From Cohnella rhizosphaerae (GTDB lineage Bacteria; Bacillota; Bacilli; Paenibacillales; Paenibacillaceae), in NCBI RefSeq assembly GCF_029525575.1, contig NZ_JAPDIA010000007.1, forward strand, positions 248,001-312,000: 64,000 nucleotides of DNA, given 5' to 3'. A model generated the notes under the pieces. The model did not search any database, had not been told where the DNA came from, and saw only the letters and a list, made by a program, of their open reading frames with translations. Made by a program: the position numbers and the translations under genes. Every line of letters starts with the position of its first letter. Position 1 is the stretch's first letter. This document shows, one piece after another, positions 21,719-63,985 of this stretch.

Positions 21719-22623
21719 GATAAGCGCATTTGGGCACTATCGCGCACCGATTTGCCTGTGCATCGCCTGCGATAAGCGCATTTGGGCACTATCGCGCACC
21801 GATTTGCCTGTGCATCGTCTGCGATAAGCGCATTTGGGCACTATCGCGCGCCGATTTGCCCGTGCATCGCCTGCGATAAGCGCATTTGGGCACTAACGCG
21901 CGCCGACTTGCCTGTGCATCGCCTGCGATAAGCGCATTTGGGCACTATCGCGCACCGATTTGCCCGTGCATCGCCTGCGATAAGCGCATTTGGGCACTAA
22001 CGCGCGCCGACTTGCCCGTGCATCGCCTGCGATAAGCGCATTTGGGCACTAACGCGCCCCGATTTGCCTGTGCATCGCCTGCGATAAGCGCATTTGGGCA
22101 CTATCGCGCCCCGATTTGCCTGTGCATCGCCTGCGATAAGCGCATTTGGGCACTATCGCGCACCGATTTGCCTGTGCATCGCCTGCGATAAGCGCATTTG
22201 GGCACTAACGCGCCCCGATTTGCCTGTGAATCGCCTGCGATAAGCGCATTTGGGCACTAACGCGCGCCGACTTGCCCGTGCATCGCCTGCGATAAGCGCA
22301 TTTGGGCACTAACGCGCGCCGACTTGCCCGTGCATCGCCTGCGATAAGCGCATTTGGGCACTAACGCGCCCCGATTTGCCCGTGCATCGCCTGCGATAAG
22401 CGCATTTGGGCACTATCGCGCCCCGACTTGCCCGTGCATCGCCTGCGATAAGCGCATTTGGGCACTATCGCGCCCCGATTTGCCCGTGCATCGCCTGCGA
22501 TAAGCGCATTTGGGCACTATCGCGCCCCGATTTGCCCGTGCATCGCCTGCGATAAGCGCATTTGGGCACTATCGCGCGCCGATTTGCCCGTGCATCGTCT
22601 GCGATAAGCGCATTTGGGCACTA
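21719..22623. repeat. 52-bp tandem array (family A), 17 full units plus a 21-base remnant
   Basis: Each unit starts GATAAGCGCATTTGGGCACT, which is invariant in all 18 occurrences; the rest varies at a few fixed places (ATCGC/AACGC; a/g/c before CCGA; GATTTG/GACTTG; CCTG/CCCG). With the last two bases of the previous unit, GCGATA and TATCGC form an inverted repeat spanning 27 bases. The unit length is not a multiple of three and no plausible gene crosses the array. It lies after nagA. Function unknown. Confidence 0.95.
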
Positions 22624-22892
22624 GAAAAGCCGCCAGCGGCCTATTTGTTGCCCATTCGCACGCAGCGGACGGACCGGGGAGCCCTTATTCTTTTTCCTAT
22701 CGCGCTTCCCGGTCTGTTCGCGGACCCAGGCGCCGCTATTGCGGGATTGCCGGCCCTTCATAGCCTTAATCCGAGTAAATAACGCCCCTCCAGTCCGCCA
22801 TATCGCCATTCGGACCGTTTTTTACGAAAATAGCGTCCCCTGTGTCCGGCGGCACCGGCTGCCTGCGCGCATTCAACCGCTGAACGTAGTCG
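22624..22892. other. Intergenic stretch between two arrays
   Basis: No convincing gene. A minus-strand frame ending at TAA 22766 has an ordinary-looking C-terminal piece (DDYVQRLNARRQPVPPDT, then DAIFVKNGPNGDMADW) that would run upstream into the GC-rich array, so it may be the tail of a decayed gene whose middle became the array. Confidence 0.4.
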
Positions 22893-23600
22893 TCATTCGC
22901 ACGCACCGGCGAACCCACCCGCGTTCTCGCCACCACCACTCGCGTCCCCACCACCACTCGCGTCCCCAGCACCACCCGCGTCCTCGCCGCCACCGCCCGC
23001 GTCCGCACCCGCACTCGCGTCCCGCCCGCGTCCGCACCCGCACTCGCGTCCCGCCCGCGTCCGCACCCGCGTCCTCGCCGCCACCGCCCGCGTCCGCACC
23101 CGCACTCGCGTCCCGCCCGCGTCCGCACTCGCGTCCTCGCCGCCACCACCCGCGTTCTCGCCACCACCACTCGCGTCCCCAGCATCACTCGCGTCCCGCC
23201 CGCACCCGCACTCGCGTCCCGCCCGCACCCGCACTCGCGTCCCGCCCGCGTCCGCACTCGCGTCCCGCCCGCGTCCGCACCCGCGTCCTCGCCGCCACCA
23301 CCCGCATTCTCGCCACCACCACTCGCGTCCCCAGCACCACCCGCGTCCTCGCCGCCACCGCCCGCGTCCGCACCCGCACTCGCGTCCTCGCCGCCACCGC
23401 CCGCGTCCGCACCCGCACTCGCGTCCTCGCCGCCACCGCCCGCGTCCGCACCCGCACCCGCGTTCTCGCCACCACCACTCGCGTCCCCAGCACCACCCGC
23501 GTCCTCGCCGCCACCGCCCGCGTCCGCACCCGCGTCCTCGCCGCCACCGCCCGCGTCCGCACCCGCACTCGCGTCCCGCTCGCGTCCGCACCTGCGTCCC
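22893..23600. repeat. GC-rich modular minisatellite built from CGCGT-initiated words
   Basis: The plus strand is a string of about seven recurring words, each beginning CGCGT: 21-base (CGCGTTCTCGCCACCACCACT without its last base shown as CGCGTTCTCGCCACCACCAC), 18-base (CGCGTCCGCACCCGCACT, CGCGTCCCCAGCACCACC), 12-base and an 11-base word CGCGTCCCGCC. On the minus strand all but the 11-base word are multiples of three and would read as Gly/Ala/Ser-rich blocks ending in Asp-Ala or Asn-Ala. The 11-base word recurs many times and breaks that frame, so a present-day protein is doubtful. Long frames exist on both strands only because stop codons are rare in such sequence. Confidence 0.85.
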
Positions 23601-23683
23601 TCCCGCCAACTCCCTGCCTATCGTCGCCCTAAGTATAGCCGGTGCAGCCTGTACGACATCCGTGATGTTAAGCGTTCTGGTCG

Positions 23684-23717
23684 CTAAAAAAAAGGATGAC
23701 GCTGAGGCGTCATCCTT
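23684..23717 (-). terminator. Terminator of the TPP-enzyme operon
   Basis: Minus strand AAGGATGACGC-ctca-GCGTCATCCTT followed by a run of T (plus-strand A8 at 23686-23693). The stop codon of the last gene lies inside the hairpin. Confidence 0.88.
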
Positions 23718-24103
23718 CTCCGTATGTAATTCCTTGCTCCTCGAATACCTTCATGACGACGAACATCGCATCCAGCGTCTTGGGAAAGCCGGCGTAGGAT
23801 ACGCAATGCATGACGGCTTCAACGATCTCGTCGGGCGCAAGGCCGACGTTTAAAGCGCCCTTAATATGAAAATCCAGCTGAGTCGCCGCGCCCGAAGCGA
23901 GCATCGCCGCAATGGTGAGCAGGCTCCGCTGCTTGAGATCCAGGCCCGGCCGGGCGTACAGCGAGCCGTAGGGAAACTCGACGATCAGCCTGGCCATATC
24001 GGGGCTGAACTTCTCCATACGTTTAACCGTCGCGTTCAGCGTCTCTTCGCTGACCATCTTTTTTTAATACTTCGATGCCTTGATCGTAGCGATTCGCGTC
24101 CAT
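23710..24103 (-). CDS. Carboxymuconolactone decarboxylase/AhpD-like protein, one apparent frameshift
   Basis: ATG 24103 after GGAGGATTATTGGCT. MDANRYDQGIEVLKK joins the main frame (MVSEETLNATVKRMEKF) if one A is removed from the A7 run (plus-strand T7 at 24059-24065). About 130 residues with SLLTIAAMLASGAATQLDFHIKGALNVG and EIVEAVMHCVSYAGFP, the CMD fold. The usual CxxC of peroxidase-active AhpD is absent (single Cys in HCVSYAG), so a hydrolase/decarboxylase-like or unknown role is more likely. Third gene of an operon, 22 bases after the TPP enzyme. Confidence 0.8.
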
Positions 24104-24125
24104 AGCCAATAATCCTCCGTATCGT

Positions 24126-25781
24126 TTAATCCAAGCTGAGCAGCCGAGTCAGAATCGGCGGGATCTCCTGCGGATCGACCATGACCTCGATGACCGCGGC
24201 GGTATCGGACCGCAAGGCGGACCGAACGGCGCGCTCGACTTCCGTTCCCGTCTCGCAGCGGTAGGCCGTCGCGCCCATGGATCGGGCAAACAGGCTGACG
24301 TCCAGCGGCCGCTCGTAGACGGCGCCCACCGAGCGCCCCGTGTTGTAGGACATGCCCTTCTCCACCATATCCAGTCGCCCGTTGTTCAGGACGAAGAAGA
24401 TGACCGGAACGCCATGATTGACGGCTGTCGAGATCTCGGTCCCGTGCATCATGATGCAGCCGTCGCCGGTGACGCAGACGACGGGGCGGTCGGGCATGGC
24501 GATCTTGGCTCCGATCGAATAGCCGATGGCCGCCCCCATGGCGATGAACACTTCATCGAAGAAAAAGGTTCCCGGCTCGATAATCTCGAAATTTTGCACG
24601 GCATGGAAGGAGTGGCTACCCGCGTCCCCGAACAGCACCGCGTCCTTCGGCAGCGCCGCCCGCAGGCTCCTGAACGCCGTTCCCGCCGACAACGCGGCTT
24701 CCGTCTGCGTAGTCGCCGCAACGGCGGCCTCGGCGCGGGCCGCCAGCGCCTCATGCGATTCCTGCGCCTTGGCGGACGCCCCGCTCCGCCGGACGAGCCG
24801 GGTCAGGTTGGATTGGATATCGCCAAGAATCACCTGCGTCGGCGCCTGAATCGTTTTTCCCGCGAACGTCAGGTCGTACTCGAACTGCAGCACCTTCTCC
24901 GGCGCCATGTCGGCCGTAAATCCGGACAAGGACATGTCGCACAATTTGCTGCCGACGACGATCATCAGGTCGATGCCGGATTTCAAATATTCCGTCGCAA
25001 GCCTGGAGCCGCCGAGGCCATACCCGCCCAAGTATAGGGGATGGTTGGTGGGGAACGCCCCTTTCCCGCCGGGCGTGGTCATGACGGGGATTCCCCAATG
25101 CTCGGCGATGGTCCGCAATTGGGGATACGACTCGGACATGACGGCGCCTTTGCCGAGGAAGAGGACCGGCTTCCTGGCCTCGTCCAGCATCGTTGCGGCT
25201 TTGTCGAGATCGCCGGATACGACCGGCGAGATGTGGTCCGGCAGCGGCAGGTAGAAGGACTCGACCTCCTCCATCAGCACGTCGAACGGGATGCAGAGAT
25301 GAACGGGACCCTTTTCGCCCGTATAGGCTTTTTCCAAAGCATGCTTCAGGTACAGGTAAAGAAGATCACCCCGCTCGATGCGCGCGCTGAACAAGGTGAC
25401 GGGCTCGAACATTTTAACGAGATCCGCTCCGAATTGGCTTGAATCCTGGCTTAAGGCGCGTCCGGTCTCCTGCATCGACGGCTGTCCGGTAATGAACAAT
25501 ACGGGCAGCTGGAACTCCTTGGCCTGCCCGGCGGCCGTGATCATATTCGTGCCTCCCGGACCGGAAGTGCCGATCGCGATGCCGAGCGTCTTTTTCCCTA
25601 ATGCGTAGCCTGCCGCTTCGAACCCGCTGCCGGCCTCGTGGCGCCCCAGCACGTATTCGATGCCGAAGCTTTCGAGCTCCAGCATCAGCGGAGAGATGGA
25701 CTTGCCGGGAATGCCGAATACGTGCGAAATCCCCCAATTTTTAAAATGCTCGACCAATAGGGTGTACACTCTCTTTTTCAT
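24126..25781 (-). CDS. Thiamine-diphosphate enzyme, acetolactate-synthase-like
   Basis: 551 residues with the three-domain TPP fold: N-terminal Pyr domain with the catalytic Glu in GRHEAGSGFEAAGYALG (about residue 50), central domain (KPVLFLGKGAVMSESYPQL), and C-terminal PP domain with the metal/TPP motif GDGCIMMHGTE...NHGVPVIFFVLNNG. Family members condense 2-oxoacids (acetolactate synthase, glyoxylate carboligase, sulfoacetaldehyde acetyltransferase); which one is not decidable here. No small regulatory subunit is adjacent, so it is unlikely to be the biosynthetic IlvB. Its AAAGGTGA ribosome site overlaps the stop of the upstream c-di-GMP gene, four bases away, so the two are coupled. Confidence 0.85.
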   Translation of the reverse strand: MKKRVYTLLVEHFKNWGISHVFGIPGKSISPLMLELESFGIEYVLGRHEAGSGFEAAGYALGKKTLGIAIGTSGPGGTNMITAAGQAKEFQLPVLFITGQPSMQETGRALSQDSSQFGADLVKMFEPVTLFSARIERGDLLYLYLKHALEKAYTGEKGPVHLCIPFDVLMEEVESFYLPLPDHISPVVSGDLDKAATMLDEARKPVLFLGKGAVMSESYPQLRTIAEHWGIPVMTTPGGKGAFPTNHPLYLGGYGLGGSRLATEYLKSGIDLMIVVGSKLCDMSLSGFTADMAPEKVLQFEYDLTFAGKTIQAPTQVILGDIQSNLTRLVRRSGASAKAQESHEALAARAEAAVAATTQTEAALSAGTAFRSLRAALPKDAVLFGDAGSHSFHAVQNFEIIEPGTFFFDEVFIAMGAAIGYSIGAKIAMPDRPVVCVTGDGCIMMHGTEISTAVNHGVPVIFFVLNNGRLDMVEKGMSYNTGRSVGAVYERPLDVSLFARSMGATAYRCETGTEVERAVRSALRSDTAAVIEVMVDPQEIPPILTRLLSLD

Positions 25782-25785
25782 CGTA

Positions 25786-27991
25786 TCACCTTTGCGAATT
25801 GGTTTTCATTGCCCCTCTTTTCCTCAACAATCGCTCGAATTGCGCCGCCGGCAAAGGCCGGTGATAATAGAAGCCCTGCACCTCATGGCAACTGTGGCTG
25901 TGCAGGAAATCCAGCTGATCCCTGTCCTCCACGCCTTCCGCGATGACGCCGATGCCAAGCTTGTGGGCCATCGCGATGATCGTCGCGACGATGTCCGCGT
26001 CGGTCGTATCCGTCATGATGTCCCTGACGAAGGACCGGTCGATCTTCAGCCGGTCGATCGAAAACAATTTTAAATAGTACAGGTTGCTGTAGCCTGTCCC
26101 GAAGTCGTCGATGCAGAGCTGCATGCCGAGCTCCTTCAGCTTGCCGAGCACCTCGATCGCGCCGTCCACGTTCATCGTCATCGACTCCGTGATCTCCAGC
26201 TCCAGGTACCTGGGATCGATGCGGGTCTCGCGCAGGATCTCTTCGATCCTCTCGATCAAATCATGCTTTGAAAATTGGCGAGAGGAGAGATTGACCGATA
26301 CGCGCATCGGGGCGAAGCCCTTTTCCCTCCATACCTGATGTTGAAGGCAGGCGGTCCTCAGCACCCACTCCCCAAGGGAGACGATGAGTCCCGTCTCTTC
26401 GGCGATCGGGATGAACTTGGCCGGCGGGAGCAGGCCGAGCGTCGGGTGATTCCAGCGGACGAGCGCCTCGGTACCGATCACTTCCCCGGTCAATACGTCG
26501 ACCTGGGGCTGGTAATGCAGCTCGAACTCGCCCAGCTGCAGCGCTTTGCGAATCGAGTTTTCCAATGTCAGCCGTTCAATGCCCCCGCCGTCCGGGTTAG
26601 GCTTGAAGACGTTGTAGTTGTTCTTCCCGTCGTCCTTCATCCGATAGAGCGCGATGTCGGCGTTTTTCATCAGCATCTCGACGTTCGTGCCGTCTTGCGG
26701 ATAGAAGGCGATGCCGATGCTGGCCGTGATGTAGAACTCGTAGCCGTCCACCGCGAACGGCTTCTCGAATACTTTAATGATCTGTTCCGCGACATGAATG
26801 GCTTCCGCCTGGTTCGCAATATTGTGCAGGAGGATCGTGAATTCGTCTCCGCCCATTCGGGACACCAGTTGATCCGCAGCGCGGCAGCAGCTCTTCAGAC
26901 GCTCGGCAACGAGCTTCAGCAGCACGTCGCCGTTGTTATGGCCCAGCGTGTCGTTAATCTTCTTGAAGCTGTCCAGATCGAGAAACATGACGGCGAAGAT
27001 GCTGTTGTCGTTCACCCCGTGTCTTAGCAGCTTATCGATATGACCGGTAAAAAACCTGCGATTCGGCAGGCCCGTCAGATCGTCATGATAGGCCAGGTAA
27101 TTGATTTGCTTTTGCGTGCGATACCGCTCCGTAATGTCCCGGAACTGCGCGAAGGCGCCCATGATCTGCTGGTTCCCGTCGCGAATCGGGAACGCGTCGA
27201 ACAAATAAACAAGCTCGTCCTGCCCCGACCGGGGGCGCAGGATGAACTCCATGTCTTCGTATTCTTTTCCCGTCCGGAGCACCTCTTGAATGAAGTCGTT
27301 CGCTTTGGCGTCCGGAATCGGCTGGTGAAGGACGTCCTGCTTTTTGGCGCCGGTCAAAATTTCCGCAAACTTATTGAATTCGGTAACGTTTCCATCCCGA
27401 TCCGTAATAATAATGCCGTTTCGCGTCGTCTCGATGACCACCTGGTTCAGGATGTGCAGCCGTCTGTTCTGCTTTTTCAGCAGCAATTCGCGTTCGATCG
27501 AATCGACGACCGTGCACAGCATCGCCAATAAAAAGGGATTGTGCTGATCGATGGTCGTCATGATCGTAATGGTGCCCAGCAGGTTGGAAATATCCGCATA
27601 TTGGAAGGGGACCGAATAGCACGCGGAGGACCCTAAAAATTCATAATAATGCTCGCCGCCGACCAGTTGGACGGGCTCGCGGTGATCCAGCACCAGATTA
27701 ATGCTGTTCGTTCCCGCTTCGCGCTCACTGAAGATCAGGCCGACCCGAATGCCCGATTGCTGAACGACGCTTTTGATCGTTTCGTCCCCGGCCATTTCCA
27801 GAATGCAGCCGTTCTCGTCGGAAATGAGGATCAAAAGTGGAAGCCCTTTCATGAGCTCCAGCATCCGATGGACGAAAAAGTCGATGACGGACAATATTTC
27901 TTCGTATTCCGCCCGTTTGAGATCCAGCTCGGCTTCCGATAAAAACCGGGTAAAAGGAGGGAACCCCCTGCGGGTCGATGCCTAGCGCCAC
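25786..27991 (-). CDS. GAF-PAS-GGDEF-EAL c-di-GMP signalling protein, apparent frameshift near the start
   Basis: About 734 residues. Residues 40-165 look like the GAF domain of AcoR-type activators (SEREAGTNSINLVLDHREPV then QLVGGEHYYEFLGSSACYSV). Then PAS (about 175-285), GGDEF (SRMGGDEFTIL) and EAL (GTEALVRW, NLSSRQF, ELEITES, DDFGTGYS, KIDRSFV, AEGVE), so both cyclase and phosphodiesterase motifs are intact. The start is uncertain: removing one C from 27964-27968 extends the frame to GTG 27991 (MALGIDPQGFPPFTRFLSEA); otherwise TTG 27894. The RxxD of the I-site is shifted by one residue. No membrane segment, so it senses a cytoplasmic signal. Confidence 0.87.
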
Positions 27992-28203
27992 ACATCTCTT
28001 TTTTAGACTCCGAGATCAAGGATACTTTCGTCAAAGCGATCCCCCTACTCTACCAAGGAAAATGCAAGAATGTACATAGATGTGGAGAAATCCCGTTGCC
28101 AATCGATTCTATTTTTATTATGACGACGCGTAAAGTTTTTTGTCAATTTATTTCTGTTAGATTCTGGATATCGATCTGGGCATACGCGATGCTGCGGGAA
28201 CCA

Positions 28204-28233
28204 TTGACCATGTCAATTCTTGTCCGATATGAT
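28204..28233 (+). promoter_or_regulatory. Probable SigA promoter of the cluster II regulator
   Basis: TTGACC (28204-28209), 18 bases, TATGAT (28228-28233), 40 bases before the GTG start at 28273. Confidence 0.6.
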
Positions 28234-28272
28234 CTTCTATACCAGAACTCGTTGTGCCAAGGGGGAGATTGC

Positions 28273-30384
28273 GTGGGATTGATGCCGGGCTGGAGAAACC
28301 GGTACTTCGTTCGACTGGCGCTTTCATACAGCGCGCTTGCCGTTTTGCTCATCGGGACGGCCGGAGGCTATCTGTATGACAGGGCCAACGCAGTGATGGT
28401 GGAAGAGATATCGAAGGACAGTCAGCATACCCTGCTTAACATTCAAGGCTATCTGGAGAATACGCTGCTGCAAAAGTACGAAGATACGTTCATCAGCCAG
28501 GTGATGGCGACCGTCATTCCGGACAGCACGGACGATCTGATGATTCTGCTGAGCGATCCCCCCGTTTCCCACATGTACCAGATCACGACCTTCGTCAACG
28601 ATTTGAACGTCATCGCCGCTGCCAACGAAGGATTGGCGGGGATCACGATTTATTTTGCCGAATCGGATTATGTCATCGACGAGAAGCACTATTACCGCAC
28701 CCCGGCGAACGCCGCGGACAGCGCCTTTATCGACCGGCTGCCGAATACGGCCCCGAACCGCTGGCTTCTTCGAAAAAAAGACGAAACGGGCGAAGACGTG
28801 CTGACTTACGTGTACACCCTCCCCTATATGATGAACCAGAAAAGCGCCAAGGGCTATTTGTACATCGATATCAGCCTGGCCTACGTGAAGACGATCCTCA
28901 ATCAAATGACGAACGCCTCGAAGGAAACGTTGATCGCGCTCGATCGCGCAGGTACGGTTATGTTCCAGAGCCGGCCGGTAGCGGACCGCGTGATGAAGCT
29001 GGCGAGCGAGAAGGTCGCCCGGGACGGCTCGGCGATCGAGGTCTCCAAGGATAACGCAAGCGATAATATCGTGGCCTATCTGCCGCCGTCCCTGTCCGCC
29101 AACGGTTGGGGTTATGTGGTCGTCAAACCCACCAACTCCTTTTTCTCGCGACTGAAAAGTTCAAGAACGATATTATATGGAGCTGCGCGGTCATCGTCCT
29201 GGCCGGCATACTGACGGCTGTCTTCGTATCCAAGCGGTTTTACGTCCCGTTCGGCAAAATGGCCCGCAGCCAAAGCTTGCTCCATCTGGTGAACGGCAAT
29301 TTGGGCGCCATGGACAACCCCGACGGATTGCCGGTTTATCCCCGGTACGTGGCCGTTCTTGTCAAAAACGTCGGTGACGCCGTCGTTTCGTTCCAAACGC
29401 TGTTGTCCGAACGCCGGCCGGCGATCCCCCACGATCTCGTCCTTGTCGGCGAACGCGAGGCGGTCGTCTTGTTTTATCCGGAAGCGGCCGACGCCGCCCC
29501 CGCTTTGAGCGTCCGCGAGGAAATGCGCAGGCTCATGCCTTTCTACGCGCGCGCCGGGAAACTAGTCGTCGGGATCGGCGGCGTGGCGCTGTCGCCGGAG
29601 AGCGTTCACGAGTCGAGGGCCAACGCGGAATACGCCTGCCAGTACGGTTTTGAGGCCGGCTATCCCGCGGTTATTCTGTACGACGAGATCATGCACCGCA
29701 AGGCCGTTCACCTGCCTTTTCCTTACGAGCCTTTCTCCAATGCGGTGCTGGCCGGAGATTCCTCGCTCGCGGAGCGAATGATCGGCGGCTATATCGCCGA
29801 GCTTGCGGGCGGCGGAATGTCGATCGAATCGGTGGAGGTGAATCTCATGCAAGCGGTTACCTCTATGTCCGGTTTGATGATCGATCATCATTTGCAGCAT
29901 CTCGTGCCGGGGGGGCGATTGGTTGGCCGAGGCCCGCAAAACGACGCTGGAGGAAACGGGCGCCTGGCTCGCGGAGATGGCCCGGCAAATGGCGACGCAT
30001 TACGAGCAGCGGGCGTCGAACGGCCACTTGCTGCTGGTACGCGATTTGAAGGCGTACATGGACGAGCATCTGGACGAGGACATCTCGCTGGACTCGCTTG
30101 CGGAACGGGCCAACTTAACGCCGAATTACGTCTCCATGCTGTTTAAGGAAGCCACGAACGTTCATGTCGGCGAGTATTTAACCCGAATCCGGCTGGAGAA
30201 GGCCGCGGAGTTGCTGCGGAATACGAAATCGACCGTCTCGGAGATCTCGCTGCAGGTCGGCTACAGATACTCGCAATATTTCTCCCGCAAATTCAAGGCT
30301 AAATACGGGGTCACTCCGCTGCAATATCGCCAGGCCTCGACCGGGGAGCGGAAACCCGCCCCGGAGGCGACGGAATTGCTGTGA
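28273..30384 (+). CDS. Membrane-anchored AraC-family regulator, two apparent frameshifts
   Basis: GTG start preceded by AAGGGGGAGATTGC. Residues about 12-32 (LALSYSALAVLLIGTAGGYL) are a first membrane helix, then a 260-residue extracytoplasmic sensor region. After an apparent lost T in 29140-29144 the frame continues through a second helix (WSCAVIVLAGILTAVFVSKR) and a cytoplasmic linker. An extra G in the G7 run 29909-29915 is followed by the AraC DNA-binding domain (SLDSLAERANLTPNYVSMLF; GYRYSQYFSRKFKAKYGVTP). Joined length about 703 residues, as in the sensor-AraC fusions common in Paenibacillus. It likely senses a glycan fragment and activates the importer and lyase genes that follow. Confidence 0.86.
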
Positions 30385-30403
30385 GCGGAAAATCGGACCA
30401 TAA

Positions 30404-30440
30404 AGACGGCTGCCCGCACGAAGGGAGGCCGTTTTTTTTT
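30404..30440 (+). terminator. Terminator after the cluster II regulator
   Basis: ACGGCTGCCC and GGGAGGCCGT form a stem with a small internal mismatch, followed by nine T. Confidence 0.75.
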
Positions 30441-30640
30441 GCGTCCTTCTTCGTGAAAGCCGGCGAAGGCGCCGGATATCCGGTTGTATACAGATGATAG
30501 GCGGATATTATACAGCGCCGTTGTTGGTTTTCATCCACTTTTCGCGGTTTTTATTGTAGTCGGAAAACTGGCGCGGCGTTTACATTAGGAGCCAGGACCG
30601 ACTCGCCGGTTCGAAAAGACACAAGACGAGGAGGGGCTGG

Positions 30641-31562: not shown

Positions 31563-31593
31563 CCGGTACACGGTTTGGAAAGGAGGATGCCGC

Positions 31594-32466: not shown

Positions 32467-32535
32467 CGTTATTTGCAGGCCTCGCCACGGCGCCGGCTTG
32501 TCGAATATAAAAAAAACTTGTGGGAGGTCCAATGT

Positions 32536-34134: not shown

Positions 34135-34156
34135 GCGATTTGCGGAAGCATGGCCT

Positions 34157-34188: not shown

Positions 34189-34269
34189 TTCCATAATCCA
34201 AGCGAAAAAGGAGGCGATCGGCGGGGGGAAGCGGAATACGCAAACGAAAAAGGCGAAGGAGATGAAAAC

Positions 34270-46789: not shown

Positions 46790-46818
46790 CCAAGGCCGCG
46801 CGGCCTGGCGGCGTCGAG

Positions 46819-46882
46819 TGCCGCTAACGCGCACCATCACATCGCCCTGTGGGCCGTTAGCGGCACGAAATGCCGCTAACGC
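46819..46882. repeat. Repeat family D, about 1.2 units of a 52-base period
   Basis: TGCCGCTAACGC at 46819-46830 recurs as TGCCGCTAAC at 46871-46880, exactly 52 bases later. GTTAGCGGCA-cgaaa-TGCCGCTAAC (46856-46880) is a 10-bp-arm palindrome spanning 25 bases. It resembles families A-C in layout but not in sequence. Confidence 0.75.
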
Positions 46883-46914
46883 CCGCCGCCACACCGCTCC
46901 CTATTAGACCCGCT

Positions 46915-46969
46915 CGCGAGCCTGCAGAGTAATTTTTTTCCTTTACAGCACCATTTAGACCGGTTCGCG
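46915..46969 (-). repeat. Single inverted copy of the 51-bp repeat family B
   Basis: Its reverse complement starts CGCGAACCGGTCTAAATGGT, runs through a CTGTAA...TTACTCTGCAG hairpin and ends CAGGCTCGCGA, differing from units of the array at 63111-63985 in only a handful of positions. Confidence 0.9.
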
Positions 46970-47035
46970 GGTCACTGTCACAGCGGAACACGCCGCCGCG
47001 CGGGACACCCTCTTTCATTTTTGTCAAACTAAAAG

Positions 47036-51994: not shown

Positions 51995-52001
51995 GCCGCG
52001 C

Positions 52002-52691: not shown

Positions 52692-52728
52692 ATCGCGAAA
52701 AAATGTGATATGAATCGCAAAAATGTGA
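52692..52728 (+). promoter_or_regulatory. Direct repeats before the GH38 gene
   Basis: ATCGCGAAAAAATGTGA (52692-52708) and ATCGCAAAAATGTGA (52714-52728), with their TGTGA ends 20 bases apart. Direct repeats at two helical turns suit an AraC-type regulator such as the one encoded at 55322. A TATACT -10-like hexamer follows at 52755. The rest of the 360-base gap (52434-52793) shows nothing recognisable. Confidence 0.45.
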
Positions 52729-52793
52729 ACTTTCCCGCCTGTTCCTCCCGAGGCTATACTGATCGCAAGACAGGATACGTTAGGGGAGAACGC

Positions 52794-55238: not shown

Positions 55239-55321
55239 TTTTGATATCATGAGAAGGGCGGCGTCTCTCTGCGGAGAGAAGCCCTTTTTTGCGCTTATGC
55301 CGCCGGGAAGGAGCGAATCGC

Positions 55322-56873
55322 ATGCGACGCCTGTTAATCGTGGACGACGAACGGATCGAGAGAGAGGGCCTGCGGAACCTGATTCGCAGCTGCCAGCTGG
55401 AGCTGGAGACGCTGACGGCGGAGAACGGGGAGAAAGCCCTCGATATCGTTCGGCGCGAGCCGGTCGATATCGTGCTCACGGATATTAAGATGCCGTTCAT
55501 GGACGGCTTGGAGCTGTCGGAGAGAATCAGGGAAGAAAAGCCGGACATCGAAATCATTATTTACAGCGCTTTCAACGAATTCGAATATGCCAGGCGGGCG
55601 CTTCGCACGAACGTAGCGAACTATCTGCTCAAGCCGATTCAAGTGCCGGAGTTCCTCTCCGCGCTGCGCGAGGCGATCGCCGCCTGCGAGGAAAAAGAGG
55701 CGGGCCGCATGCGCGAGCTGCAGCTGCAGGAAGGCTACGAACGCGGAATCGCCTACGAGCGGGAAAAAATGCTGCTGGACGCGATCAACGCGCCGCGAAG
55801 CGGCAGGCTCCCCGCATCCCCGCCTTCGCCGGGCGCTTCCGGCACGCCGGAGGCGATTCATCTGCTGCTCGTGGAATGCCCGAACCATTTTTTCGATATG
55901 CATAACGACGCTTTTGTCGCGATGCTTCAGGCGTGCGTGACCGATGCGTTCGATTACCTGAACGTGAACGAAAGCCAAAGCATCGTCTTCGTCCGCCATC
56001 CGGCCCCGCTGTCTACGGAGGCGCTCCGGTCGCTGGCCGAGACGATCTCATTAGGCGCCTCCGCGCGCTTCGGCCAGAAGGTAAGCATCGTCGTCGGCGC
56101 GGCCGCAGACGGCTGGGATCGCGTACACGAAGCCTACGGCAGCATCGAGCGGCTGCTGGAATACCGCTTTTTTATGGACGACCGGCCGATCCTCTTTTCC
56201 GAAGCGCAATTTTCCGAAGCCCCCCTTTAACGAAAACGAATTGAACGCGATGGTGGACAAGCTCTACCAGTGCCTGGCGTACCAGGACGTGCAGGGGGCC
56301 AAGTACGGGATCGAGCTGCTGTTTTCTTACCTGAAAACGAAAGGGCATTTCTCGTCGCTCTATACCAAATTCCTCTGCTCGGAGATTTTGTCCAGAGCCC
56401 TGGCGAAGGAGCACAAGAGCCGCCTGCCCGTCATGAACGAGTACCTGGACAAAATATCCCGCTGCGCTTCCCTGCACGACCTGAAACAGGTCATGTTCGA
56501 CATTTTCGATCTCGTCGAAGCGGGCTTCGTCTCCGGGGCCAAAGCCGAATCCGCGAACAAGATCATCGAACAGATCAAGCAGCTTATCGGGGAAAATTAC
56601 GATCAGGACCTCTCCCTGGAAGGCCTGGCGAACCAGGTGTATCTGACCCCGAGCTACCTGAGCTACCTGTTCAAGAAAGAGACCGGGCAAAGCCTGATCC
56701 GATACATTACGCAGGTGCGGATGGAGAAGGCAGCCGAGCTGCTGCGGGATACGAACATCAAGATCGTGGATATTTGCAGTATGCTGGGGTACCGGAGCTC
56801 CAACTATTTCATCCAGTCTTTCCGGCAATATTACGGCGTCACCCCGGCCAAATACAGGGAGGCAACTCCGTAA
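55322..56873 (+). CDS. AraC-family response regulator, one apparent frameshift
   Basis: ATG after GGAAGGAGCGAATCGC. Receiver domain RRLLIVDDERIEREGLRNLI, DIVLTDIKMPFMDGLEL (phospho-Asp about residue 55), LLKPIQ. One extra C at 56220-56225 interrupts SEAQFSEAP, which continues FNENELNAMVDKLYQCLAYQ. C-terminal AraC helix-turn-helix LEGLANQVYLTPSYLSYLFK and GYRSSNYFIQSFRQYYGVTP. About 516 residues. Expected partner of the kinase at 60599. Confidence 0.9.
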
Positions 56874-56970
56874 AAAACCTGTTCAAATCATAAATTTGTG
56901 AGATGGAAGGCGTTTTCACGCTGCTGCTATGATAAATAGGCAAACAAGTTCATTCGATGGAGGTTGGGGC

Positions 56971-58677
56971 ATGCATACAAAAAAATCGACCCTCTTGCTC
57001 TGCTCGACGCTGCTGCTCGGCATGACGGCTTGCAGCAACGGCGGCGGCAACGATGGCGGCGACGGCGGCAATAGCGCCGCGGGCGCTTCGCCAAGCGCGT
57101 CGTCAAGCGCCTCGCAGCAGACTGCCGATTCGAGCGCAGCCGCATCCGGAGAAGATCCGTTCGGCAAATACGCCGAGACGGTCATGGTGTCGCTGGGCAG
57201 ACAGGGCGTATCAGGCAACAACCTGCCTTCCGGCGATACGCTGGAGAGCAACCAATATTTGAAGTACGTCGAGGATCGTCTCAACGTGAAGATCAAATAC
57301 GATTTTTCGGTCGAGGATCTGGACGCCTACAATCAAAAGGTGACGCTGGCCATCGCGAGCAACAACATCCCGGACATCATGGTCGTCGACGAGCAGCAGT
57401 TCCAACGGATGGCCAAGGCGGGCATGCTGGCGGAGCTGACCGACGTCTACGACAAGTACGCGTCGCCGCTGATCAAAGAGTACTACGGCTCCTATACCGG
57501 CGACCGCGTGCTGAACACCGGGCGGATCGGCGGCAAGCTCTACGCGCTGCCCAACACGAACATCGACGGCAACTTCCAGCTGCTCTGGATGCGCAAGGAC
57601 TGGCTCGAGCATCTGAACCTTGCGCTGCCGAAGACCGTGGACGACCTCAAGACGATCATCCAGGCGTTCGTCCAGAAGGACCCCGACGGCAACGGCCAGG
57701 CGGATACGATCGGTCTGCTCGGCGACACGTCGATCGCGACCGACGGCGGCTTCTTCACCTTCGATCCGATCTTTAACGCCTACCACAGCTATCCGAAGAG
57801 CTGGTTCCAGGATGCCGACGGCAATGTCGTGTACGGCTCCACGACGCCGGAGACGAAGCAGGCGCTCGGCGTGCTGCGGGAGATGTACGCGCAAGGCCTG
57901 ATCGACAAGGAGTTCCTGACGCGAAAATGGGAGGACAACGCCGGTCTCGTATCCAGCGGCCGCGCGGGCATCCTGTTCGCGCCGTGGTTCGCCGGCTGGG
58001 CGATGTCCGACGCGGTCAAGGCGAATCCGAAGGCGGACTGGGTGCCGCTCGCGGTGCCGCTCGACGACGCGGGCAAGCGCAATATCGTGCCGTCGGTCCC
58101 TTCGGGCTCGTTCCTGGTCGTCAAGAAGCAGGCGAAGAACCCCGAGGCCGCGATCAAAATTTTGAACGTAGAGTACGAAGGCATCCGCCTGATCGACCCC
58201 GCCGCGCAGGAGCTTTATAAAGGCCTCGGCGTAGGCTGGCTGAACTATCCGCTGAACCTGCAGCTGGACTTCCAGGATTCGCTGGCGCGGGACGTGCCGA
58301 TCTACGACAAGGTCGTACAGGACAAGGACAAGACCGGCCTGCCTGCGCGCATCCTGCCCCGCGTCGAGTCGGTGCTGAAGAACCAGGAGAATCCGAAGCA
58401 GGACATGGCGGCTTACGCCGATTCGCTGGCCTTCTACACGGCGGCGGCGGTCACCGGCGCCAAGGAGCTGAACAAGGTGGAGCCCGCGTACTACGGCAAG
58501 ACCGAGACGATGCTCAAGCGCGGCGCCAACCTGGATAAGCTGGAGAACGAGACGTTCCTGAAGATCATTACCGGCACGTCGCCGCTGGACGAATTCGACA
58601 GCTTCGTCTCCACGTGGAAGTCCATCGGCGGCAACGAAGTCGCCAAGGAGATCAAGGAGGCGCTTCAGGCAAAGTAG
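56971..58677 (+). CDS. Extracellular sugar-binding lipoprotein, cluster III
   Basis: 568 residues from ATG 56971 after GATGGAGGTTGGGGC. Lipobox GMTAC (Cys about 20) with a long Gly/Asn/Ser tether, then a family-1 binding fold (YLKYVEDRLNVKIKYDFSVE; ASNNIPDIMVVDEQQFQRMA; QKDPDGNGQADTIGLLGDTS). The upstream gap contains AAATTTGTGAGA, similar to the repeats before the GH38 gene. Feeds the permeases downstream, though a terminator stands between. Confidence 0.92.
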   Translation: MHTKKSTLLLCSTLLLGMTACSNGGGNDGGDGGNSAAGASPSASSSASQQTADSSAAASGEDPFGKYAETVMVSLGRQGVSGNNLPSGDTLESNQYLKYVEDRLNVKIKYDFSVEDLDAYNQKVTLAIASNNIPDIMVVDEQQFQRMAKAGMLAELTDVYDKYASPLIKEYYGSYTGDRVLNTGRIGGKLYALPNTNIDGNFQLLWMRKDWLEHLNLALPKTVDDLKTIIQAFVQKDPDGNGQADTIGLLGDTSIATDGGFFTFDPIFNAYHSYPKSWFQDADGNVVYGSTTPETKQALGVLREMYAQGLIDKEFLTRKWEDNAGLVSSGRAGILFAPWFAGWAMSDAVKANPKADWVPLAVPLDDAGKRNIVPSVPSGSFLVVKKQAKNPEAAIKILNVEYEGIRLIDPAAQELYKGLGVGWLNYPLNLQLDFQDSLARDVPIYDKVVQDKDKTGLPARILPRVESVLKNQENPKQDMAAYADSLAFYTAAAVTGAKELNKVEPAYYGKTETMLKRGANLDKLENETFLKIITGTSPLDEFDSFVSTWKSIGGNEVAKEIKEALQAK

Positions 58678-58702
58678 CATTCGCGCTCGTTAAACGTGAT
58701 CA

Positions 58703-58740
58703 GGGGCTGTCCGGCAAGTCAGGTCAGCCCCTTCTTTTTT
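58703..58740 (+). terminator. Terminator between binding protein and permeases
   Basis: GGGGCTG-(15)-CAGCCCC followed by TTCTTTTTT. Partial read-through would yield far more binding protein than channel, a known pattern in ABC importer operons. Confidence 0.8.
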
Positions 58741-58771
58741 GAATCGAATCTAGCGCATAGGTGGAGATGCA

Positions 58772-59662
58772 ATGAATAACCGATCGTTTATCCGTCACTA
58801 CCATTTCATGCTGCTGCCCGGCATCGCTTTGTTGCTCGTGTTCAGCGTCATCCCGATGGTCGGCATCGTCATCGCGTTCCAGGATTTCCAGCCGACGCTC
58901 GGCATCTTCCGCTCGGATTGGGTCGGCTGGGAAAATTTCCAGTACATGTTTGACTTGCCGGACAGCCGCACGATTTTCGTCAACACGCTGTCCATCGCGT
59001 CCTTAAAGATCGTGGCCGGCATGGCCGTTCCGTTCGTATTCGCATTGATGCTGCACGAAGTCATGAACATGAAGTTCAAGCGCATCGTCCAGACGATCGT
59101 TTATTTGCCTCACTTTATGTCCTGGGTCATTCTATCCGGCATTTTGGTTAATCTGCTGAGCCTGGAAGGCATCGTCAATCAGATCGTCCAGTGGTTCGGC
59201 GGCCAAGAGATCATGTTCCTGCAGAGCAATTCCTGGTTTCGGGTCATTCTGGTGGCGAGCGACGTCTGGAAGGAATTCGGCTTCAACACCATTATTTATA
59301 TTGCCGCGCTGACCTCGATCAACGCGAGCCTGTACGAGGCTGCCGCGATCGACGGCGCCAACCGCTTTCAGCGGCTGCTTCACATCACCATACCCGGGTT
59401 GCTCCCCACGATCATCCTGCTGGCGACGCTCAGTCTGGGCAACGTGCTGAACGCCGGCTTCGAGCAGATTCTGAACCTGTACAATCCCGTCGTCTACCAG
59501 TCCGGCGACATCATCGATACCTACGTCTATCGCGCGGGCTTGCTGGAGATTCAATACGGCCTCGCTACCGCCGTCGGCTTGCTGAAGTCGATCGTCAGCT
59601 TCCTCCTGATCGCCGTCTCTTACTTGCTCGCCGCCCGTTTTGCCAACTACCGCATCTTCTGA
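58772..59662 (+). CDS. Sugar ABC transporter permease, LplB type, cluster III
   Basis: 296 residues, ATG after TAGGTGGAGATGCA. HFMLLPGIALLLVFSVIPMV first helix; EAA loop YEAAAIDGANRFQRLLHITI; ends LLAARFANYRIF. First channel half of the third importer. Confidence 0.93.
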   Translation: MNNRSFIRHYHFMLLPGIALLLVFSVIPMVGIVIAFQDFQPTLGIFRSDWVGWENFQYMFDLPDSRTIFVNTLSIASLKIVAGMAVPFVFALMLHEVMNMKFKRIVQTIVYLPHFMSWVILSGILVNLLSLEGIVNQIVQWFGGQEIMFLQSNSWFRVILVASDVWKEFGFNTIIYIAALTSINASLYEAAAIDGANRFQRLLHITIPGLLPTIILLATLSLGNVLNAGFEQILNLYNPVVYQSGDIIDTYVYRAGLLEIQYGLATAVGLLKSIVSFLLIAVSYLLAARFANYRIF

Positions 59663-59677
59663 CAGGAGTGACGATTC

Positions 59678-60559
59678 ATGATACGCGGAAGCAGCCGTGC
59701 CGTCGACTGGACGATCTATCTGATCTTGAGCCTGATCGCCTTTTTTTCCATCGCGCCGATTCTTAATACGCTGGCCATCTCGTTCAGCGGCAAAATTCCG
59801 GCGATGGCCGGCCAGGTTTTTTTCTGGCCGGTCGAATTTAATCTGAGCGCTTACGAATCCATCATGCGGGACCGCAATTTTTTCATTTCCTTCGGCGTAT
59901 CGATCGAACGGGTGCTGCTGGGAGGCGCGATCAACTTCGTGATCACGGTGCTGATGGCTTACCCGCTGTCCAGAACCGCCAAGCTGTTTCCCGGCCGGAA
60001 CGTCTACATGTGGTTCGTCATCTTCTGCATGCTTTTCAACGGCGGCTTGATCCCGTGGTACATGACGATCTATTCGCTCGGCCTGCTGGACTCGATCTGG
60101 GCGCTCGTGCTGCCCACGGCGGTGCCCGTGTTCAACGTCATCCTGCTGATGAACTTCTTCAAGGGCATTCCGAAGGAGCTCGAAGAGGCGGCCAACATGG
60201 ACGGCGCGGGTCCCTGGAAAACGCTGTCCGTCATTTTCGTTCCGATCTCGCTGCCGGCGCTCGCGACGGTCACCTTGTTCTCGATCGTCGGCCACTGGAA
60301 CGCCTTCTTCGACGGCATGATCCTGATGCAGCACAAGGAGCATTGGCCGCTGCAGACCTACATCCAACAGCTGATCATCAGCGTGAACTCGATCATGAAT
60401 ACGACCGATCCCGAGGAGATCAAGCGGCTGACCAACATGTCCAGCCAGCTGCTGAACTCGGCGAAGGTCATGGTTTCCATGGTGCCGATTCTGTTGATCT
60501 ATCCTTTTCTCCAAAAATATTTCGTGAGCGGCATCGTGCTGGGCGCGGTGAAGGAGTAA
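59678..60559 (+). CDS. Sugar ABC transporter permease, YtcP type, cluster III
   Basis: 293 residues, ATG after CAGGAGTGACGATTC. EAA loop ELEEAANMDGAGPWKTLSVI and C-terminus PFLQKYFVSGIVLGAVKE. Partner of the preceding permease. Confidence 0.93.
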   Translation: MIRGSSRAVDWTIYLILSLIAFFSIAPILNTLAISFSGKIPAMAGQVFFWPVEFNLSAYESIMRDRNFFISFGVSIERVLLGGAINFVITVLMAYPLSRTAKLFPGRNVYMWFVIFCMLFNGGLIPWYMTIYSLGLLDSIWALVLPTAVPVFNVILLMNFFKGIPKELEEAANMDGAGPWKTLSVIFVPISLPALATVTLFSIVGHWNAFFDGMILMQHKEHWPLQTYIQQLIISVNSIMNTTDPEEIKRLTNMSSQLLNSAKVMVSMVPILLIYPFLQKYFVSGIVLGAVKE

Positions 60560-60598
60560 GATGAAGAGACCATAAGAGCTGGAAGGGCGGATCGACCG

Positions 60599-62299
60599 TT
60601 GCTAGCGAAGTGGGGAAAATCGATCAAACTCAGACATAAGCTGTTCATCTCCTATCTCGCCGTCACTTTGATCCCGCTCTCGATTCTCGGCGTTTATTCC
60701 TATCAGCAGTCCAAAGAAGTGCAGCTGAAGCAGGCGAACGTCGTGCTGCAGGACAATCTGGGCAAGATCGACGACAGCCTGAGCTACAAGTTGCAGCGCT
60801 TCGACGCGGCGATCGAGCTTATCAGCTACAATCCGAACTTCTCCCACATTTTTAACGAAGAATACAAGAGCTACTATACGATGTACCTCGATCTGAAGGA
60901 GATCGTAGACCCGCTTATCAATACGACGACCTCGCTCAACAGCGACATTCAGCGGATCGTCATCTACACCGAGAACAACGTGACCGAACGCTTCAACTCG
61001 ATCATGCCGATCTCTGCCGTGGAGCACGCCTACTGGTACAAGGAAGCGATGGAGACGATCGACACGCGCTGGTATATCGAAAACGGAAAGGTGTTCGGCG
61101 TCAGGCGCATCTTCGGCGACATCAACTACGACAAGAAAAACCTCGTCTACGTGGAGCTTGTCCCGGAATTCCTGCAAGACTCGCTGAATCTGCCCGATCT
61201 GCCGGAAGCCGCGGCGGTCATCGCCGACAGTCGCGGCAAGGTCGTATACGCGAGCGGGCCGGCTTCGGGGCGGATGGGGGACGCCGCGGCCCTCGTCGAG
61301 CGGCGGCTGCAGGGCGCGGCCGACGACCATCCGGAATATCTCTGGCTGCATCGCGAACTGAGAGCGTCCAACTGGTCGCTGTCCCTGATGGTGCCCGACG
61401 ACGCGCTCACGATCAGCCCCTGGAAGATTCTCCGGGCGACGCTCATCATCGAAGGACTCTGCATCGTTGTCCTTCTGCTCGTCGGCTGGATTTTTTCCCG
61501 CGTGTTCGTCCGCCGGATCCAGCGCCTGAACCACAAGATGAAGCTGGTCGAGGAAGGGACGCTGACGATCAGTCTCAAGGTCCACGGAGGCGACGAGATC
61601 GGAGAGCTCGAATCGCGGTTCGGCAAGATGCTGGCCAGCATCAACCAGTTGATCGAAGAAAGCTACAAGAGCAAGATCGTTCAGCGGGAGGCGGAGCTGA
61701 GGGCGCTTCAGGCCCAGATCAATCCGCATTTTCTGTACAACTCGCTGTCGGTCATCAACTGGAAAGCCATCGACGCGGGCGCCGAGGACATCAGCCGGGT
61801 CGCGGGCATCCTCTCGACCTTCTACCGGACGACGCTTAATCAGGGCAACGACCTGATCCTGATCAAGGACGAGCTGCTGAACACGAAGTCATACCTCGAG
61901 ATGCAGCTCATCATGCACGACTACAACTTCGACGTCGAATACGAGGTGGACGACGCCCTGCTGGAGCAGCGGATGATCAAGCTCGTCCTTCAGCCGATCG
62001 TGGAGAACGCCATCGAGCACGGCATCGACCAGAAGCGCGAGGGAAGAGGCATGCTGCGAATCTGCGGACGCATCGAGGAAGACGAAGAGACGCTCGTATT
62101 CACGGTGGAGGACAACGGGCCGGGCATGCCCGCCGGCGTCGCGGAGGAGGTGCTCGTCAAGCAGTCCCGCGGCTACGGGCTTCGCAACGTTCACCAGCGG
62201 ATTCAGGTGCAGTACGGCAGCCGGTACGGAGTCGAAGTCGCGAGCGAGCCTGGCCGGTGGACGCGGGTGAGCGTGACGATCCCGGTCTCCGATGTTTGA
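60599..62299 (+). CDS. Sensor histidine kinase, YesM type
   Basis: 566 residues, TTG start after GGAAGGGCGG. First membrane helix at residues about 15-35 (LFISYLAVTLIPLSILGVYS), an extracytoplasmic sensor of about 240 residues, a second helix (IIEGLCIVVLLLVGWIFSRV), HAMP (RIQRLNHKMKLVEEGTLTIS), His box AQINPHFLYNSLSVINW (His about 376), N-box LVLQPIVENAIEHG, G-boxes VEDNGPGMP and GYGLRNVHQRI. Phosphorylates the AraC-type regulator at 55322 (inference from context). Confidence 0.95.
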   Translation: MLAKWGKSIKLRHKLFISYLAVTLIPLSILGVYSYQQSKEVQLKQANVVLQDNLGKIDDSLSYKLQRFDAAIELISYNPNFSHIFNEEYKSYYTMYLDLKEIVDPLINTTTSLNSDIQRIVIYTENNVTERFNSIMPISAVEHAYWYKEAMETIDTRWYIENGKVFGVRRIFGDINYDKKNLVYVELVPEFLQDSLNLPDLPEAAAVIADSRGKVVYASGPASGRMGDAAALVERRLQGAADDHPEYLWLHRELRASNWSLSLMVPDDALTISPWKILRATLIIEGLCIVVLLLVGWIFSRVFVRRIQRLNHKMKLVEEGTLTISLKVHGGDEIGELESRFGKMLASINQLIEESYKSKIVQREAELRALQAQINPHFLYNSLSVINWKAIDAGAEDISRVAGILSTFYRTTLNQGNDLILIKDELLNTKSYLEMQLIMHDYNFDVEYEVDDALLEQRMIKLVLQPIVENAIEHGIDQKREGRGMLRICGRIEEDEETLVFTVEDNGPGMPAGVAEEVLVKQSRGYGLRNVHQRIQVQYGSRYGVEVASEPGRWTRVSVTIPVSDV

Positions 62300-62493
62300 G
62301 GAACGATACGCTGATGGAGGAACAATGTAAAGCGTAAGAGCCTCCCGCGCCTTCGCTTGAGCTGTGCTCCCCAGTTTCACGACAACCGTATGCGCACAAT
62401 GAGAGATACCTTACTTACACTAACTTCTTGACGCTACCTGACGCTACCGTCGCAGAGACGGCGATCGTGCCCATTGGCGCTTTATCGGGCATG

Positions 62494-62588
62494 GAGTTGC
62501 ACGGTTTTTCCGCGTTACTCCGCTCTCAGGTGTCGTGTACTGCGGAGTTGCACGGTTTTTCCGTGTTACTCCGCTCACAGGTGGCGGT
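62494..62588. repeat. Repeat family C, two units of 51 bases
   Basis: GAGTTGCACGGTTTTTCCGC recurs exactly 51 bases later. Each unit contains GGAGT...ACTCC as an inverted repeat spanning 29 bases around a T5 loop. The second unit abuts the decayed transposase. The 190 bases before it (62300-62493) hold nothing recognisable. Confidence 0.85.
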
Positions 62589-63093
62589 TTCGTCCAATCT
62601 GCATAGCGTCCGAAAGAATCGTATCCGTGTTCGAAAATGTACGTATACGCCGACGGAACCGCCAGCTCGTCCAAGACTCCGAAACGACGCCTGTAGAAAG
62701 CGCGATATGCTGCGGATGAACGGATTGCGTGTTCGCCAAACCGAAGCTCAAATGCAGTAACCGCATGTTGCCCCCGCTGGACGTACGCCCATTTGACGCG
62801 TTGGGCATCGATGGAAGTCGTGGTTGCATCCACTATAGTCAGCGTACCGATTTTGGCGAGGCTTGGTCCGGATAGTCTTCGCCAAGCGCTGTCATGACTT
62901 GCTTATCCAGCGCTTTAAGCGCATTCGCGGGCAGCGACTGCGGCTTACGATGCAGGCTCGAAGCATGGATGGAAGGTAACTGTGTAGATAGCATTAGGGC
63001 GCCCTTTAGGGTCGCCCTAATTTTTCGCTTTTGCAGCTGGTGCAGCACGGCGTAAATCATCAATCGATTAAAAGTACAGGATTTTTTCCTCAA
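62589..63093 (-). pseudogene. Decayed IS4-family transposase fragment
   Basis: On the minus strand AKIGTLTIVDATTTSIDAQR then VKWAYVQRG matches the first catalytic-Asp region of IS4-type transposases (...DATT...WA...), and FGVLDELAVPSAYTYIFEHG then YDSFGRY aligns with the D(R/H)GY region of the second Asp, here EHGY. At least one frameshift lies near 62870, both termini are missing and the family C repeat truncates it. Inactive. Confidence 0.6.
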
Positions 63094-63110
63094 ACATGCT
63101 CATCAGCGTC

Positions 63111-63985
63111 GCGAACCGGTCCAACAGTTGCTGTAAGGGCAAAAAGTTACTTTACAGCTTCGCGAACCGGTCCAAATGGTGATGTAAGGGCAAAAAGTTA
63201 CTCTACAGCTTCGCGAACCGGTCCAAATGGTACTGTAAGCGCAAAAAGTTACTCTACAGGCTCGCGAACCGGTCCAAATGGTACGGTAAGGGCAAAAAGT
63301 TACTCTACAGCGTCGCGAACCGGTCCAAATGGTACGGTAAGGGCAAAAAGTTACTCTACAGCGTCGCGAACCGGTCCAAATGGTACGGTAAGGGCAAAAA
63401 GTTACTCTACAGCGTCGCGAACCGGTCCAAATGGTACTGTAAGGGCAAAAAGTTACTCTACAGCGTCGCGAACCGGTCCAACAGTTGCTGTAAGGGCAAA
63501 AAGTTACTCTACAGGCTCGCGAACCGGTCCAAGTGGTACTGTAAGGGCAAAAAGTTACTTTACAGCTTCGCGAACCGGTCCAAATGGTGCTGTAAGGGCA
63601 AAAAGTTACTCTACAGCTTCGCGAACCGGTCCAAATGGTACTGTAAGGGCAAAAAAGTTACTCTACAGCGTCGCGAACTGGTCCAAATGGTACTGTAAGG
63701 GCAAAAAGTTACTCTACAGGCTCGCGAACCGGTCCAAGTGGTACTGTAAGGGCAAAAGTTACTCTACAGGCTCGCGAACCGGTCCAAATGGTACGGTAAG
63801 GGCAAAAAGTTACTCTACAGGCTCGCGAACCGGTCCAAATGGTACGGTAAGGGCAAAAAGTTACTCTACAGCTTCGCGAACTGGTCCAAATGGTACTGTA
63901 AGGGCAAAAAGTTACTTTACAGCGTCGCGAACCGGTCCACATGGTACTGTAAGGGCAAAAAGTTACTCTACAGCTTCGCGATCGC
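63111..63985. repeat. 51-bp tandem array (family B), 17 full units plus remnant
   Basis: Units start GCGAACCGGTCC and contain CTGTAAGGGC and AAAAAGTTACTCTACAG, giving a CTGTA/TACAG inverted repeat spanning 27 bases. Variation is limited to a few sites (TACTG/TACGG/TGCTG; CTTCG/CGTCG/GCTCG). One unit has an extra A (about 63650) and one lacks an A (about 63753) in the A5 run. The period is a multiple of three, so a 17-residue-repeat frame is open on the minus strand, but it has no ribosome site. Confidence 0.95.

Follow-up and report, generated by a model that had tools for sequence, protein, structure and literature searches.

Intergenic tandem arrays in Cohnella share a 50–52-nt unit with A/T composition phased over five helical turns

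Introduction

Several described classes of DNA resemble, in part, a group of tandem arrays that lie in a 64,000-nt stretch of the Cohnella rhizosphaerae genome (the window; G000:C8:248001-312000, from a genome of 8.5 Mb in 9 contigs) and elsewhere in the genus. These arrays consist of head-to-tail units of 50–52 nt that differ widely in sequence and place their A/T-rich patches in register with five turns of the double helix. We compare them here with the closest described systems. In Escherichia coli, the DNA gyrase motif obtained by Topo-Seq is 130 bp long; its G/C content is phased, its two 47-bp flanks are periodic and 35–52 bp is wrapped around each domain (PMC6379681). Gyrase cleavage sites there are concentrated downstream of operons with high transcription (PMC6379681, PMC12393610). 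The Cohnella arrays are like these sites in helical phasing of composition, in a unit about as long as one wrapped flank and in their location at gene ends, but they are tandem and have a period of 10.0–10.4 bp, as opposed to 10.75 bp for the gyrase motif (PMC6379681).

Repetitive extragenic palindromic (REP) sequences and bacterial interspersed mosaic elements (BIMEs) are also intergenic, present in many copies and biased toward gene ends, and some Cohnella families share their palindromes. BIMEs alternate in orientation (PMC2817692), whereas the Cohnella arrays run head to tail, keep a near-constant five turns, have no general palindrome and occur in genomes of which seven of eight lack a Y1 transposase. 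Helix-phased A/T runs are likewise a feature of genomic A-tract periodicity and curvature, whose role in prokaryotes is called unclear in three reports (PMC3940949, PMC3431218, PMC516772). That signal is diffuse and genome-wide, whereas the Cohnella arrays are discrete, tandem and built of five-turn units. Like intrinsically curved DNA, the arrays have A/T runs phased at 10–10.5 bp, and curvature is predicted for them. Eukaryotic satellite DNA of nucleosome length is tandem, keeps a constant physical unit length across families and undergoes concerted evolution (PMC8122249); the Cohnella arrays are similar in these respects but are bacterial, short, intergenic and without nucleosomes. Bacterial minisatellites, or variable-number tandem repeats, including one inside a Porphyromonas miniature inverted-repeat transposable element, show copy-number variation and homogenized units (PMC4596501), as the Cohnella arrays do, but in Cohnella one length is common to many sequence families. 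A search confined to PMC, which lacks bioRxiv preprints altogether and the majority of subscription papers, returned no description of such arrays in Cohnella or Paenibacillus.

Results

Tandem arrays were surveyed in 20-kb stretches chosen blind to repeats, which amounted to 2.24 Mb plus the window from eight Cohnella genomes: 800 kb plus the window from C. rhizosphaerae (contigs C5 and C9), 400 kb from G013, 200 kb each from G012 (one contig), G018 (two contigs), G006 and G024, and 120 kb each from G003 and G010. A same-order outgroup, G025, contributed 160 kb. Detection combined Tandem Repeats Finder with autocorrelation, at a period of at least 25 nt and a length of at least 100 nt. A period of 50–52 nt was found in 59 of the 104 arrays from Cohnella and in all eight genomes. 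Among the 60 arrays not spanned, flanks included, by an open frame, 46 had this period, as did 46 of the 49 that fell within 30–80 nt. The first of these counts becomes 46 of 56 when pieces of one apparent CRISPR (clustered regularly interspaced short palindromic repeats) array at locus L034, which supplied six survey rows and four of the 60, are set aside. That array (L034:16633-18759, on contig C5 of C. rhizosphaerae) has, by eye, a repeat ATTTCAATCCACGCTCCCCACGTGGGGAGCGAC at a spacing of ~66–68 nt. Neither of two arrays in the outgroup had a 50–52-nt period, and two 12-kb samples and one 3.9-kb contig from other same-order genomes, too small to count, contained none. In C. rhizosphaerae, 24 arrays in 800 kb (window excluded) cover 1.28% of the sequence, which extrapolates to ~255 arrays per genome. 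Protein-coding repeats were rejected as an identity for the arrays, since in 46 of the 59 with 50–52-nt units no open frame spans both the array and its flanks. The initial annotation had proposed, from four repeat families in the window (A to D), that unlike sequences in this lineage obey one length rule. The survey bears this out over many sequence clusters; periods spread evenly over 30–80 nt were looked for and not found.

What the families have in common is A/T phasing over five helical turns, not a stem. Grouping of the 59 units at 62% best-rotation identity yields 41 clusters, and removal of two coding-like representatives (G006 L105 8997 and G024 L123 7658) leaves the 39 families used for tests of phasing, stems, indels and polymorphisms. 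In these families, the fifth harmonic of A/T (W) content is 3.3 times its shuffled value (z = 14.4), with the other eleven harmonics between −2.8 and 1.4, and it ranks first of 12 in 19 of 39 families. AA/TT steps at five cycles per unit give z = 8.7. Fifth-harmonic power is 0.0658; 5000 draws of 39 windows each from a pool of 6515 intergenic windows gave at most 0.0439. The phasing is robust to removal of the window families (z = 14.0), to removal of open-frame arrays (z = 13.3) and to restriction to arrays with at least five copies (z = 14.1). Taken singly (1 to 15 families per genome), seven of eight genomes reach z of at least 2.5; the exception, G012, has one family and z = 0.8. The helical period of the arrays is 10.0–10.4 bp, and both 91-nt arrays of G012 (L089:19227-19440 and L093:12826-12997) peak at nine turns (10.11 nt). 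The suggestion that form rather than sequence is acted upon finds support in these data, with a shared form other than the stem that had been claimed.

Family A provides a view of phasing within a partly conserved unit. Its units, compared over ~35 arrays of five genomes, combine a conserved 25-nt core with a variable ~26-nt linker (11 linker clusters at 60%), and the period stays at 52 nt or within a few nucleotides of it despite this variation. Linkers from 10 of the 11 clusters, which are less than 60% identical, are in phase with the core (P = 0.0002), and the linker–core relationship is positive at no other harmonic between 2 and 9. The family A set comprised 36 arrays, one of which (L154, +) is a different array on the wrong strand, and the linker-phase test took 33. 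The unit of array A alone is strongly phased (z = 6.5).

Polymorphisms among copies of the same array also respect the phase. The 650 within-array changes between A/T and G/C disrupt five-cycle phase less than random placement does (−0.093 versus −0.217, standard deviation (sd) 0.026). None of 500 random draws reaches the observed value, which is ~4.8 sd away, and controls at k = 3, 4, 6, 7 and 8 cycles per unit lie at −1.2 to 0.7 sd. The reduced disruption was repeated in a second set of 54 A/B-type arrays (z = 4.3), from which L169 and L174, loci also in the first set, were excluded (with both, 55 arrays and z = 4.6). From this pattern we infer selection. An alternative is that the mutation rate varies with rotational phase where a protein is bound, which would itself imply wrapping.

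The arrays have a characteristic relationship to genes. With genes called by a small purpose-written Markov caller and gaps of at least 80 nt counted, arrays occupy 14 of 130 convergent gaps, 33 of 670 codirectional gaps and 1 of 186 divergent gaps (Fisher tests: convergent versus divergent, p = 2.5e-5; codirectional versus divergent, p = 0.0046). Called genes contain five of the 59 arrays, and another four lie where a sampled stretch ends. Between codirectional genes, 24 of 35 arrays are closer to the end of the upstream gene. One site shared by C. rhizosphaerae, G013 and G005 holds 6, 15 and 3 copies, respectively, of species-specific units; the adjoining DNA beyond is nearly unchanged, and by eye the array sits close behind a stop codon.

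This placement bears on the possibility that the arrays are counterparts of BIME-2, that is, DNA gyrase loading sites in which phased DNA would wrap around the GyrA C-terminal domains and arrays at gene ends would help to remove positive supercoils. This is a serious rival, because phasing is a property of the E. coli motif too, each flank of that motif is roughly as long as one unit and gyrase sites lie downstream of genes, and the arrays have both helically phased composition (z = 14.4) and a gene-end location. The 10.75-bp period of the E. coli motif stands against it, as does a finding of the Topo-Seq report, namely that motif scores do not hard-wire the attraction to downstream regions (PMC6379681). 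We consider gyrase loading unlikely. The two chief competitors of the explanation that we favor, in which the arrays are kept as bent or wrappable DNA, are gyrase loading and descent without selection.

Sequence relationships among the units are faint. At 50% identity, the 39 units chain into eight clusters, but mean pairwise identity is 0.429, shuffled pairs average 0.41 with a 99th percentile of 0.47, and the highest of 300 shuffled pairs is at 0.50, so this chaining is weak evidence. A weak motif, GGCGgAtTAGcG, is common to the cluster representatives, with a log-likelihood of 70.9 versus 39.2 (sd 2.3) in 12 shuffles; these were mononucleotide shuffles searched with fewer restarts than the real set, and the two coding-like units were still included. 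By eye, L011 of G013 combines a B-type hairpin with an A-type linker (GCTCGGAATGGTGC), as though the modules could be exchanged by recombination. The initial claim that the families share no sequence was thus too strong, and we read the units as a putative superfamily whose members have diverged nearly past recognition. Family A occurs in 5 of 40 relatives and family B in 4 of 40, so these two families are limited to some species, but the period is not. The A core pattern has 199 matches in the C. rhizosphaerae genome versus 1 for the reversed pattern. In a named genome collection, from which records near the window's own were possibly excluded, the sole matches to the exact B core were four stretches of Cohnella sp. 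GbtcB17.

Such relationships invite an explanation by functionless common descent, in which a single 51-nt tandem unit of an ancestor was dispersed and its copies drifted apart in sequence, leaving the period and A/T phase as inherited remnants. The weak shared motif, the rarity of indels among copies within arrays (49, nearly all of 1 nt, versus 1382 substitutions) and concerted evolution at the orthologous three-species site agree with this account. It fits poorly with phase being kept in A linkers of unlike sequence, with polymorphisms that avoid breaking phase and with phasing that persists when one family per 50%-identity cluster is taken (z = 5.3, n = 8), and we regard it as fairly unlikely. 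A copying machine with a fixed step of ~51 nt, able to amplify any sequence, would produce a narrow period across many clusters, but it leaves the A/T phasing and shared motif unexplained. We rate such a machine as the least probable of all the explanations, with Y1_Tnp the only enzyme candidate sought.

Inverted repeats, which the initial annotation had taken as the shared form, are not in excess. When the best score of each of the 39 families was compared with 99 dinucleotide shuffles, loops of 3–8 nt gave p = 0.91 for A and 1.00 for B, with 5 of 39 families at p of 0.05 or less (Fisher p = 0.16). Loops of 3–20 nt, which cover the 15-nt loop of A, gave p = 0.31 and 0.40, respectively, with 4 of 39 families at this level (Fisher p = 0.29). 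Folding z-scores were weak (means of −0.5 and −0.3, 20 shuffles each), and the best strand fell below −2 in 13 of 59 units. The stem was therefore rejected as the common form. Compensatory changes, whose absence had been named in advance as telling against the stems, were sought in families A and B and are absent in both: 253 of 350 paired cells in A versus 251 with partners shuffled (35 distinct cores), and 77 of 90 in B versus 77.5. Long palindromes do occur in a minority of families (for example, G006 L105 and G003 L200), so stems may matter in those. At G003 L200, two adjoining 50-nt arrays (8220-8393 and 8421-8593) have unlike but self-paired stems, TTAGCGCG/CGCGTTA and TTAGTCTC/GAGACTA. 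By eye, a hairpin like that of family C (for example, GTAACACGGAAAAACCGTGCAAC) lies just upstream of A arrays at L038, L039, L065, L153 and L184.

The palindromic minority, including the two adjoining G003 arrays with different paired stems, and the gene-end location would suit a role in RNA, with transcribed hairpin arrays acting as 3′ untranslated-region structures, attenuators or protein sponges. Hairpins lack a general excess, however, pairing in A and B is no better than after shuffling, and no Rfam family was found within arrays from five sources, which together make an RNA role very unlikely.

Mobility through a Y1/REP transposase, also part of the initial proposal, receives no support from gene content. 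The Pfam domain Y1_Tnp is absent from the C. rhizosphaerae genome and from seven of the eight sampled genomes; it is present in 12 of 37 genomes of the genus, and 5 of 14 control genomes are positive. Membership in REP sequences or their associated tyrosine transposases (RAYTs) was rejected on this ground and because palindromes are not beyond chance in the 39 families. REP-like elements driven by a Y1 (HUH) transposase would account for copies dispersed between genes, some of them palindromic, and for unlike 51-nt units at the same gene end. Such a case is found behind nagA: the window has array A there, and the corresponding site in G013 (L210:2441-2543; protein 92% identical) lacks an A array and has instead two AGGAACACC-type 51-nt copies, which agree at 38 of the 55 positions compared at a lag of 51. 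At the B locus, G018 has no tandem repeat but another sequence, coding-like by eye. Neither of these two sites is a clean empty site. Together with the distribution of Y1_Tnp, this makes Y1-driven mobility highly improbable.

Within the window, the positions and lengths first reported hold for arrays A and B; C and D, read directly, amount to ~2 copies each. Array A (21718..22623, +) has a 52-nt unit in 17.4 copies with 96% matches and is flanked by a nagA-like gene (end 21573, +) and a gene ending at 23710 (−). Array B (63104..63981, +) has a 51-nt unit in 17.2 copies with 93% matches; its upstream neighbor is a YesM-like sensor kinase gene (end 62299), and the next gene is on its other side. 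C (62494..62588, +) is a near-identical pair of units at 51-nt spacing (GGAGTTGCACGGTTTTTCCG..GTTACTCC). D (46819..46883, +) is a palindrome, GTTAGCGGCA/TGCCGCTAAC, whose arm TGCCGCTAAC appears again 52 nt further on, within a region where positions 46794-46890 form an inverted repeat that is 72% complementary. Immediately to the right of D is, by eye, a B-like remnant of one to two units (~46906-46985, −). Linkers are near-identical inside array A and inside array B and are homogenized within A- and B-family arrays, and CRISPR arrays were rejected on this basis.

Since 51 is divisible by 3, an open frame (63031-63999) traverses array B, with a +1 unit and a −1 unit that cancel each other. It is probably a product of chance, and the gene caller placed no gene there. 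To the right of array A, a low-complexity CCACCCGCGTCC-type array (22915-23577) has periods of 21, 39 and 78, and its A/T signal lies partly at 10.5 nt. A c-di-GMP-I-GGC riboswitch at gathering score is present at 11018-11110 on the minus strand.

Discussion

We judge the evidence evenly balanced for and against the proposal that these arrays constitute one old, fast-diverging superfamily of intergenic five-turn (50–52 bp) modules that are retained near the ends of genes because their DNA is bent or easily wrapped. About five A/T-rich patches per unit, held in rotational phase, would set A/T faces on one side of the helix along the array. With five turns per unit and A/T on one side, curvature could add in register irrespective of the letters, and an array would then be a long bent or easily wrapped segment downstream of genes. 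A period of 10.0–10.4 bp suits a flat or left-handed path, such as HU-like or nucleosome-like wrapping, better than one of 10.75 bp. The most likely use of such a segment would be as a track along which a nucleoid protein wraps DNA, or as a pin or sink for transcription-driven supercoils. The bending or wrapping, the protein involved and any effect on supercoiling are what we infer. Growth, shrinkage and homogenization of arrays could occur through ordinary recombination or slippage.

Several observations weigh against this proposal. First, the phasing is uneven among families: the unit of array B alone is modest and non-significant (z = 1.6), k = 6 and 7 exceed k = 5 in the family A core alone, and the families are non-independent if they share descent. 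Second, the polymorphism effect falls to z = 2.6 in A linkers only and is non-significant in family B alone (z = 0.9 and 0.2), and k = 6 is raised too in the second set (z = 3.5), probably because the conserved core avoids changes. Third, the indel rate allows a length-difference variance of 1.6–2.0, and the observed 0.53 comes from units preselected at 50–52 nt; the variance is 3.49 once 47- and 62-nt arrays are included. The argument therefore rests on phasing, not length. Moreover, some arrays, with units of 47, 62 and 190 nt, depart from whole helical turns. Finally, avoidance of divergent gaps may be mere intolerance of promoters for insertions.

More broadly, and more tentatively, the arrays may represent a genus-wide bacterial ‘satellite DNA’ in which helical geometry, not sequence, is inherited and selected, providing chromatin-like wrapping tracks at gene ends; we lean somewhat against this wider interpretation. 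Its parallel would be eukaryotic satellites, which keep nucleosome length. Tandem repeats are usually grouped by sequence, whereas here dozens of unlike arrays obey one physical rule, which makes shape-based retention of bacterial intergenic DNA directly testable. Many arrays are available for deletion or phase shifting, and they are placed where transcription-driven supercoils meet.

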